From a virus: 23,871 nt of DNA. The number at the start of each line of letters is the position of its first letter. Position 1 is the first letter of the stretch. Below the pieces are notes generated by a model. It did no database searches and had not been told where the DNA came from. It was given only the letters and a program-made list of their open reading frames with translations. The position numbers and the translations under genes are program-made. Shown here one piece after another: positions 1,623-5,394 of the stretch. The stretch is taken from positions 1 through 23,871 of IMG/VR virus record IMGVR_UViG_3300032282_003028; one strand, given 5' to 3'.

Positions 1623-2528
1623 TTAGGAAGCGCCCTGCGAACCCCAGCCTGCGCGGAAGTTCGAGCAACCGAACGAATAACGCTCAATGGCTTTTGCCTT
1701 GAGGTTGTCGGTGTCGAAGTCCGTGTAGACATCGGTTTCGAGAGCTTCACGCTCGTAGTGCTTGAAGCCGTTTGGAGCGTCGGTGAGCAAGAACCAGCCG
1801 TTCGTGTCGGTCAGGAACATGTTAACGCGATGACCCTGCGGAACTGCAGAGTTGTTGTAGATTGCGTTAATGTCGTTGTTCGCTGTATCGACGCGGAACT
1901 GCGATTGAAGTAAACGAGTTGCTGTCCACTGCAGTTCAGCTGGAACGATGAGCTTCGTAGGCTTTGTCATGATGCGGAGGCCCGCAGCATCACGGAAGCG
2001 CTGAACGCCAACGATGGCATCCTGAAGCGACGTTTCGTTCAAGTCGGCCTGTACCGTAAAGGTATTGGCAACTGTTCCGTTTTCGATGGGGTGAGCCGTC
2101 GAGAACAGAGGTTGACCATCACCAATTGGGAAGCTGGCTGAGAAGCCGTTGTTCAGCACAGATGCGCCAAGCACTTCCTTGGTCTGTTCCATCGACTGAC
2201 GAAGAGCCTTCGCCTGCAGTGGGAACGACGATTGGTACAAGTTGTCCTTGATCGCCTGACGGGTGATGATGAAACCAATGCTGGTGTAACGGTTTACATA
2301 GTTCGTTACAAAGCGCTGGCCCATTTCGCCGTAAGAGGTCGAAGCACCTTCTGCCTTGATTTGCGCCAAGCCAAGCAGCTTAACTTCAACTTCGATTTCA
2401 ACAGCCTTATCGGATGTGTGCTTCTCGAAGACTTCCGACCACTGGCCCGGATACATCGGATAGTCGCCAAAAACAGCGGCTAGACCGGGCCGAAGCAGGT
2501 CGCGGATTGCGGTTGTATTAATAGCCAT
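1623..2528 (-). CDS. Major capsid protein, Mu gpT-like HK97 fold, 301 aa
   Basis: This gene encodes the main shell protein of the head. The sequence matches the Mu gpT-like capsid family as I know it: an N-terminal helical start (MAINTTAIRDLLRPGL), then a block around residues 60-100 with SYGEMGQRFVTNYVNRYTSI and GFIITRQAIKDN, then a region with PLFSTAHPIENG, and a C-terminal domain with RIMTKPTKLIVPAELQWTA, HRVNMFLTDTNGWFLLTDAP and a final SFGCSNFRAGWGS. The length of about 300 residues is normal for this family. The start ATG has AAGGA upstream. No protease gene or cleavable delta-domain is seen, so separate scaffolding by the upstream acidic protein is likely. Expression is probably boosted by the dedicated promoter at 3301-3329. 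Confidence 0.93.
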   Translation of the reverse strand: MAINTTAIRDLLRPGLAAVFGDYPMYPGQWSEVFEKHTSDKAVEIEVEVKLLGLAQIKAEGASTSYGEMGQRFVTNYVNRYTSIGFIITRQAIKDNLYQSSFPLQAKALRQSMEQTKEVLGASVLNNGFSASFPIGDGQPLFSTAHPIENGTVANTFTVQADLNETSLQDAIVGVQRFRDAAGLRIMTKPTKLIVPAELQWTATRLLQSQFRVDTANNDINAIYNNSAVPQGHRVNMFLTDTNGWFLLTDAPNGFKHYEREALETDVYTDFDTDNLKAKAIERYSFGCSNFRAGWGSQGAS

Positions 2529-2551: not shown

Positions 2552-3148
2552 TCAGATGCCGGTGATACCGCTACGATATTGGTGGTTGTTAATGACAACG
2601 TGCCAGTTAGCAAAAGAACCAACAGCGTTACCCGGAGTCGGATCAAGCTGAAGGATCTTGCAGTTTAGCGTAGAAGTCACGGCTTCAGTCGTATTATCGA
2701 TAGAAACAGCGGAAATACCCGTCGCGGTTGAGCCAGCAGTGTACAGGAAGTTAATGTTCAAGCCACGGTCAGCCAAAGCAAGCGGAGTGCCAGCTGCGCC
2801 AAGGTTGTTGGTTTCCTGAACCGAGAACACTGTATTCGGATCATCAATCACGAGAGCCTCAACGGTCGAGCCGGTGAGAACACCCGGATTGCCCGGCCAG
2901 TAGTTCTGGAACGTCACGACGCCAGTGCTGCTGGTGTACTTGACACCCCAGAAAACGCCGATGCAAGTAGCTCCAGCAACGCCTACACCAAGTGTGCCGT
3001 CGGCCAGAGTTGTTACAGGATCGCCTTTAAAGAGGGCAGTCGCGTAGGTGCTTGTGATTTGGTAAGGGTTAGTCGCGCCAGTCCAAGCAGAACCATCAAG
3101 TTTCTTGACGGGCTGAAAACCATTAGGCGCATTCGTTCCGTAAGACAT
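2552..3148 (-). CDS. Capsid-module virion protein, first gene of capsid operon, 198 aa
   Basis: The product starts MSYGTNAPNGFQPVKKLDGS and contains TYATALFKGDPVTTLADGTL, GVGVAGATCIGVFWGVKY and, near the C-terminus, LQLDPTPGNAVGSFANWHVV. From memory these blocks belong to a conserved phage family encoded directly next to HK97-fold capsid genes. It is Gly/Thr/Val-rich, has no signal peptide and is probably all-beta. The ATG has GGAGAAA seven bases upstream. Its place as first gene of the capsid operon, sharing a promoter with the major capsid gene, suggests a high-copy virion component such as a decoration or head-fibre protein. That role is inferred, not shown by a motif. Confidence 0.8.
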   Translation of the reverse strand: MSYGTNAPNGFQPVKKLDGSAWTGATNPYQITSTYATALFKGDPVTTLADGTLGVGVAGATCIGVFWGVKYTSSTGVVTFQNYWPGNPGVLTGSTVEALVIDDPNTVFSVQETNNLGAAGTPLALADRGLNINFLYTAGSTATGISAVSIDNTTEAVTSTLNCKILQLDPTPGNAVGSFANWHVVINNHQYRSGITGI

Positions 3149-3199
3149 ACGGTTTCTCCATGCTAAAATGAATGATTCGGCTTTAACCTGCCTGCTAGG

Positions 3200-3290
3200 T
3201 GACGCGATACGTTACGCGACATCGAATCGACTACCCGCCGTAGGAGTGGATACGTGACCACTATCGCAGTGCAGGATACGTAACCTGCGT
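3200..3290 (-). promoter_or_regulatory. Three inverted repeats with a shared ATACGT loop in the capsid operon leader
   Basis: On the plus strand the arms are AGTGG/CCACT (3245-3249 and 3258-3262), GCAGG/CCTGC (3271-3275 and 3284-3288) and CGCG/CGCG (3203-3206 and 3215-3218, extended by TG/CA after one mismatch). The loops are ATACGTGA, ATACGTAA and ATACGTTA. Stem bases differ between copies but stay paired, while the loop stays the same. A fourth partial copy, GGATACG at 3294-3300, abuts the -10 region. All lie between the predicted promoter and the first capsid-operon ATG, so they would be in the 5' untranslated RNA. Confidence 0.7.
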
Positions 3291-3300
3291 CGAGGATACG

Positions 3301-3329
3301 ATAAATAACTCAATTTAATATATTGTCAA
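3301..3329 (-). promoter_or_regulatory. Promoter for the capsid operon
   Basis: On the minus strand there is a perfect -35 box TTGACA (3324-3329), followed after 17 bases by ATTTAT (3301-3306), or after 16 bases by TATTTA. The -10 box is weak, but the spacer is very AT-rich. It begins only 6 bases after the U-tract of the preceding terminator, the expected layout for a fresh transcription unit. Confidence 0.6.
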
Positions 3330-3335
3330 CAACAT

Positions 3336-3400
3336 AAAAAAGCCCCCGCCCAGTTTCCCAGACGGAGGCAGTTCCCACAGCGTGTATCAGAACGCTGTGG
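3336..3400 (-). terminator. Double hairpin ending in a strong Rho-independent terminator
   Basis: On the minus strand a first hairpin has a perfect 8-bp stem CCACAGCG/CGCTGTGG with a 10-base loop (3375-3400). The second pairs GCCTCCGTC with GGCGGGGGC (9 bp, two G-U pairs, 3342-3369) and runs directly into six Us (3336-3341). It starts 8 bases after the stop of the 160-residue gene and should end the packaging/portal/scaffold transcript before the capsid operon. Confidence 0.88.
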
Positions 3401-4935: not shown

Positions 4936-5394
4936 TTAAAAATTGCCAGCGGACTTGCCAGACTCGACATCTTCTGGCCCAGAAATAACCGCCATGACGC
5001 GATCATCTGGTAGAAGTGCCACTGCAACACCGCGATAGGAAACCATTGTTGATTCGTAGCGCGGGATTAGAATCCAGTCGCCAACCTTGCACCACGGCCC
5101 GGAACGCTCGAACTTTTCACCCTGATAGGCTTCGGGCCCCACAGCGCACACCAAGGCAGAAACCGAGGAATACTTGTCTTCAGCGCGAACCGTGTCAGGC
5201 AGGTAAAGCGTCACTTCCGTGCCGTCTTCCTTCTTGATTGTCTTCAGTTCTTCGGGACGTATATAAATTTTAACAGCCACAAGATAACCAGCTGGCCGCA
5301 TATCAAACGGCTGGCCTGTCATCTCTATGAACTGCTCATCGATGAATTGCCTTGCAAGCTCTTCCTCGTGCGGTTCAATGTTACTCATGTTCAT
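4936..5394 (-). CDS. Phage GroES-like co-chaperonin, 152 aa
   Basis: Residues 36-145 follow the Cpn10/GroES plan: AGYLVAVKIYIRPEEL at the first strand, a variable loop (about 49-78), ALVCAVGPEAY at the 'V..VG.G' position, CKVGDWILIPRYESTMVSY at the usual 'KVGD.V.F..Y.GT.V' position, and LLPDDRVMAVI at the usual 'L.E.DILAVI' position. There is an acidic N-terminal extension of about 35 residues, so at 152 residues it is longer than the usual ~95. Phage versions such as T4 gp31 replace host GroES so that GroEL can fold the capsid protein; its place beside the scaffold-like gene and 2.4 kb before the capsid gene fits that. The LYL at 63-65 may stand in for the hydrophobic GroEL-contacting tripeptide of the mobile loop. 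The ATG overlaps the upstream stop, with AAGGAG nine bases upstream. Confidence 0.82.
   Translation of the reverse strand: MNMSNIEPHEEELARQFIDEQFIEMTGQPFDMRPAGYLVAVKIYIRPEELKTIKKEDGTEVTLYLPDTVRAEDKYSSVSALVCAVGPEAYQGEKFERSGPWCKVGDWILIPRYESTMVSYRGVAVALLPDDRVMAVISGPEDVESGKSAGNF

Follow-up and report, generated by a model that had tools for sequence, protein, structure and literature searches.

To our knowledge, control of the capsid genes in dsDNA phages is usually attributed to the timing of transcription. In ssRNA phages a small bulged hairpin, the coat-protein operator, couples coat supply to translation, and the put sites of phage HK022, like nut-type antitermination RNAs, are phage leader hairpins that act in cis on a long operon. 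Other described systems share features with the locus studied here. The gp43 (DNA polymerase) operator of phages T4 and RB69 is an mRNA hairpin about 40 nt 5' of the AUG, with a conserved loop carried on a phage-specific stem (PMC3014915). In the Com/mom system of phage Mu, a protein opens a structure that holds the start codon, and a hairpin adjoins it (PMC6483171). An ANTAR-target RNA is a pair of small hairpins in tandem within a leader, certain loop bases being constant; by rule the hexaloop has A as its first and G as its fourth base, and overlap with a terminator is frequent (PMC3369931).

The window analysed here is a viral DNA record of 23,871 nucleotides, for which a preliminary description had reported three inverted repeats with differing arms around a shared loop in the leader of a capsid operon. 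All three are present as described (Table 1). The loop is indeed conserved, but its reading as ATACGT has to be corrected: since the genes, terminator and promoter lie on the minus strand, the loop in the RNA is U-N-A-C-G-U-A-U. Each unit of the window also carries the triplet CGA 5' of its stem, which had been missed.

Table 1. Features of the capsid leader and its neighbouring genes in the window.
Feature	Position	Strand	Basis or remark
Upstream gene, function not assigned	3891-3409	-	
Intrinsic terminator of upstream gene	3342..3369	-	Terminator scan; also in relatives; isolates the leader
Predicted promoter: TTGACA (3329-3324) and poor -10-like TTATTT (3308-3303)	3303..3329	-	Kept in relatives
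Unit 1: CGAC + GCAGG-UUACGUAU-CCUGC	3271..3292 (hairpin 3288-3271)	-	Sequence and covariation across relatives
Unit 2: CGAU + AGUGG-UCACGUAU-CCACU	3245..3266 (hairpin 3262-3245)	-	Sequence and covariation
Unit 3: CGAUGU + CGCG-UAACGUAU-CGCG	3203..3224 (hairpin 3218-3203)	-	Sequence and covariation
Weak hairpin AUGG-AGAAA-CCGU enclosing the GGAG Shine-Dalgarno	3149..3161	-	
First gene of transcript, 198-aa probable capsid cement/stabilising protein	2552..3148	-	phrog_37556; AlphaFold model; weak fold matches
Major capsid protein	1623..2528	-	phrog_371; PF10124 Mu gpT-like

The AlphaFold model of the 198-aa product of the first gene has a pLDDT of 90. Its nearest solved folds (weak matches, best E 0.045) are tailed-phage capsid proteins, including a capsid stabilising protein, and its weak fold matches among viral models include DUF2190 proteins; going by the model, the product is probably a cement protein. 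A gene for a GroES-like co-chaperonin lies within the structural cluster of the window (4936-5394, minus strand), and its position is kept in most distant isolates. A terminator scan of the window predicted no terminator from the hairpins to the first gene, and attenuation is therefore unlikely. An ANTAR-target RNA of the transcription type was rejected on the same ground, and the ANTAR-target rule also failed, because UNACGUAY taken as the hexaloop NACGUA has mostly C at position 1.

We assessed how specific the units are to this leader. The 23.9-kb record has three copies of TNACGTATC, each in the leader and on the minus strand. The pattern GTNACGTAYC is found exactly three times per record in eight of eight related records (20-59 kb), always in the sense orientation and in the same leader, compared with one match in total for the reversed control pattern over the same records. 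A covariance model of the unit gave two or three strong matches per unit-bearing genome, all in the leader, and elsewhere or in distant relatives weak matches alone (about 15 bits or less). Scans of IMG/VR yielded 74 distinct related leaders with 206 units, and in 201 of these CGA precedes the loop by 6-7 nt. The loop consensus, UNACGUAY, hardly varies. The preliminary description had taken the loop to be constant, which is not fully true, as position 2 is C, U or A (mostly C) and position 8 is nearly always a pyrimidine.

The stems, by comparison with the loop, are free in sequence, and their changes are paired. The 105 distinct units contain 32 distinct 5-base arm pairs, extracted with a requirement for at least three pairs per unit, and the four loop-proximal base pairs are complementary in all 32; when the 3' arms were re-dealt, a mean of 5.9 of 32 were complementary, with a maximum of 14 in 10,000 trials. 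With the requirement dropped, the CGA-flanked units that fail to form a plain stem have a one-base bulge in a matching place (e.g. GGCCG/CGUGCC), and the remaining non-stem matches are the -35 box or chance strings. Covariation had been proposed as a check on aligned leaders, and it is strong in 27 distinct units representing the window's clade: 94.8% of cells pair, against 57.1% in shuffles, and the covariation score of 0.892, against 0.193 in shuffles, was reached by 0 of 500 shuffles, counts that are no probabilities because the sequences share ancestry and are not independent. Given this kinship, the variety of compensated pair types is a stronger argument than the shuffle counts. Sliding of the partner arm abolished the covariation in the 27 representatives. 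For the window itself the evidence for the hairpins is comparative, not energetic; the global fold of its leader is no stabler than shuffles (z 0.23), and its minimum-energy structure contains hairpins 2 and 3, with hairpin 1 absent. Related phages do show both the loop and paired stems at this leader, and the paired stem changes around a constant loop strongly support the earlier proposal of a selected RNA structure in the capsid leader. From these sequence comparisons we regard it as near certain that the units form an RNA structure.

The same data bear on two further proposals of the preliminary description. One was a repressor array on duplex DNA. The sites are near-palindromic and lie near a promoter, but both arms switch to unrelated yet complementary sequences and the sites are always in the sense orientation, downstream of the promoter, so that we consider a duplex DNA operator hardly credible. 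The other was pairing between loops, whether of different copies or of different transcripts, through the self-complementary ACGU. We think such kissing very improbable: the rare natural loops UCACGCAC and UCACGCAU disrupt ACGU while the stem is kept, the mostly C at position 2 gives no extension of the palindrome, which does not include the fixed positions 1, 7 and 8, and the loop CYCGGYGY of a second clade (see below) varies within its own possible palindrome.

The window's clade also has an optional second hairpin type, which lies between units or follows them (3192-3179 and 3243-3231 on the minus strand of the window; also L100, L148, L179 and L078). It has short stems, e.g. GAGC/GCUC, GAGU/ACUC or GGC/GCC, and loops with GGU or GG (AUGGCAG, GGGUAACA, AGGUUAAA).

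The array has a fixed relation to the predicted promoter. The distance from TTGAC to the CGA of unit 1 is 36-41 nt in 66 of the 68 leaders measured, and the TTATTT of the window occupies the same alignment column as TATGAT in the divergent phage L217; a simple consensus scan did not pick up the predicted promoter of the window. Use of this promoter as predicted would place the start of unit 1 at about +1 to +4. The leader had been assumed to be transcribed from upstream of the hairpins, and the predicted start does lie upstream of the first of them. This placement, which recurs in nearly all relatives, together with the free stem sequence, would suit 5'-terminal hairpins that, possibly together with a bound protein, shield an abundant mRNA from decay that depends on its 5' end. 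Stability alone would need neither an invariant loop nor a fixed CGA flank nor two to three copies, and we regard a 5' stabiliser as unlikely, if still worth keeping in mind. The array also lies directly 3' of the promoter of a long co-directed run of structural genes, where nascent hairpins could load a factor on, or modify, RNA polymerase and so act as a processive antitermination or elongation signal for a late operon of about 30 kb. Against such a put-like role, two relatives have few predicted strong intrinsic terminators downstream, the units occur at one transcript only, and the second clade links the array to the ribosome-binding site. Antitermination is accordingly an explanation that we doubt.

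At its other end, the array lies close to the translation start. The last unit is 33-61 nt 5' of the AUG in the leaders of the window's clade, which together with the conserved loop on a varying stem recalls the gp43 operator. The gp43 operator is a single hairpin with the loop UAAC, at a DNA polymerase gene and overlapping the ribosome-binding site, whereas the units here number two or three, have another loop, precede cement and capsid genes and do not overlap the Shine-Dalgarno. The unpaired probability of the Shine-Dalgarno in the window's clade is 0.34, compared with 0.30 in shuffles, indicating no extra sequestration. A translational operator, as first suggested in the preliminary description, is the best-supported function, though for this clade it stays a proposal.

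We next considered the distribution of the array. A three-unit pattern scan over 2.9 million viral contigs found arrays preceding the cement-capsid gene pair, plus unrelated tandem repeats. Two or three units are present in every long relative that was checked, always in the sense orientation and ahead of the probable cement and capsid genes, and nowhere else. The divergent phages L216 and L217, and L225 beside them, with capsid proteins about 65% identical (range 64-66%), keep two units. Once capsid identity drops to about 50% or less, relatives in the window's direction have no such units, and this control is therefore not essential to the family; most isolated relatives, Pelagibacter phage HTVC023P and Roseobacter phage CRP-901 among them, have too little room ahead of the gene to fit a leader of this kind. 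Other matches to the three-unit pattern, such as L122, L123, L125, L156, L165 and L194, were rejected as simple or coding tandem repeats with no CGA flank and no changing stems. An unrelated phage record also picked up by the pattern scan (L161:1138-1217) contains intergenic tandem palindromes around TACGTA (AAGGTACGTATCCTT and similar), which differ from the units.

A two-unit scan of bacterial and archaeal genomes recovered genuine arrays in L211, L213 and L214, which precede the phage gene on MAG-binned contigs, and no host gene with a like array. This bears on the idea of an RNA sponge, in which the repeated sites would titrate a host or phage RNA-binding protein with no action on the gene behind. 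Identical sites repeated on a presumably abundant transcript would fit, but there are two or three sites only, always just 5' of the same gene, and no like array among host genes, and we judge a sponge improbable. Comparing the gene content of phages with and without units singled out no one candidate for the binding protein.

Relatives of MW202675 form a second clade of at least 595 contigs, whose capsid protein is 46% identical to that of the window. Ahead of the same cement gene they have two hairpins with free stems and a fixed 8-base loop, CYCGGYGY (e.g. AGUCUCC-CUCGGUGU-GGAGACU and ACUUGCC-CCCGGUGU-GGCAAGU). The string CYCGGYGYG by itself is not rare in these GC-rich genomes, and it is therefore the stem evidence that carries weight: in 29 representatives 93.7% of cells pair, compared with 62.0% in shuffles, and covariation is 0.906 compared with 0.268. 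The aligned leaders also contain an extra covarying lower helix beneath hairpin 2, the 3' strand of which (UGAUGGACCUCCU in common members) has the start codon and Shine-Dalgarno as alternative pairing partners; the predicted fold takes one pairing or the other, depending on the member. The Shine-Dalgarno is unpaired with a probability of 0.27, compared with 0.51 in shuffles, and 34 of 48 leaders fall below the lower quartile of their own shuffles for this value. As modelled, these leaders (L277-L356, e.g. L308, L311, L317 and L316) look like a two-state switch that would hide the Shine-Dalgarno and start codon. Such an inhibitory structure over the translation start signals resembles Mu Com/mom, from which the window's clade differs in having no comparable structure above shuffles and in its repeated units. 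Members of the second clade have tRNA genes (Met, Pro) a short way upstream of their capsid leader (L110:2238-2314 and L290:1825-1901).

Some members (L318, L320) lack the extra pyrimidine of the loop, and their stem runs uninterrupted up to a five-base loop, UCGGU. Their form suggests pairing of loop positions 1 and 7 (C-G in the second clade, U-A in the window's clade), with position 8 bulged. In the second clade the bulged five-base-loop form and the open loop are of about equal stability; the bulged form is 2.5-3.4 kcal/mol worse in the window's clade, where we put it forward as a hypothetical topology that is allowed but not energetically favoured.

Taken together, we propose, with about even confidence, that the leader units form an RNA operator which acts in cis from the 5' end of the cement-capsid mRNA, is probably bound by a protein and controls how the cement and capsid genes are translated. 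The array would present two or three near-identical binding sites, each consisting of the CGA flank, a freely varying stem of 4-6 bp and a constant loop of 8 bases, or perhaps of five if the U-A pair closes it and the pyrimidine is bulged. A fixed loop and flank on free-sequence stems are what a protein reading loop and shape would need, which favours protein binding, and a phage or host protein would most likely bind the units and set how often ribosomes start on the two genes. Control might take the form of feedback repression or of release from a default block. Protein binding, translation as the regulated step and the sign of control are all three points that we infer. Because the second clade ties its array to ribosome access, a translational operator is favoured; because no extra Shine-Dalgarno sequestration is seen in the window's clade, the link to translation there would rest on position and analogy.

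In favour of an operator are the covariation, the constant loop and CGA flank, the restriction to the cement-capsid leader, the site beside the predicted start, the retention to 64-66% capsid identity and the parallel second-clade array with its sequestered ribosome-binding site. Against it are the lack of Shine-Dalgarno overlap or extra sequestration, of a binding protein from gene content and of units in relatives at about 50% capsid identity or below, and the unremarkable fold of the window. By analogy, the array may work like the gp43 operator or Mu Com/mom, its relation to either being likeness and not membership.

Neither the window nor 11 loci from three clades matched any family at the Rfam 15 gathering threshold, and a relaxed Rfam search gave chance-level matches alone, at the terminator. 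The open-access literature searched held no description of the element, which is no proof that it is undescribed. The structured RNA is well supported and new to the resources searched; its function is inferred. A strongly covarying 5'-terminal RNA array in two clades with different fixed loops, on hundreds of environmental contigs, suggests that capsid supply is widely controlled at the level of RNA. Each unit is about 22 nt long, and the two loop types offer a natural specificity swap toward the binding partner.

The loops could go further and serve as an identity code, each clade having its own (UNACGUAY, CYCGGYGY and perhaps CUUCGGGY). A phage protein that co-evolves with the loop, which might be the capsid or cement protein or an assembly factor, would recognise it, and assembly would thereby throttle capsid production through the RNA operator. 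This would be a dsDNA-phage analogue of the ssRNA-phage coat operator, which differs in belonging to RNA phages, in sitting at the replicase start site and in its loop; we offer it as a tentative extension that is probably not correct. The third loop comes from a third clade (L357-L366), in which a single hairpin carries, among other loops, a CUUCGGGY-like one. The leader of this clade contains, about 150 nt ahead of the lead gene, a near-invariant hairpin, CGUC-CCUUCGGG-UUGACG, followed by a long hairpin whose arms seem to covary and then by a GC-rich hairpin.
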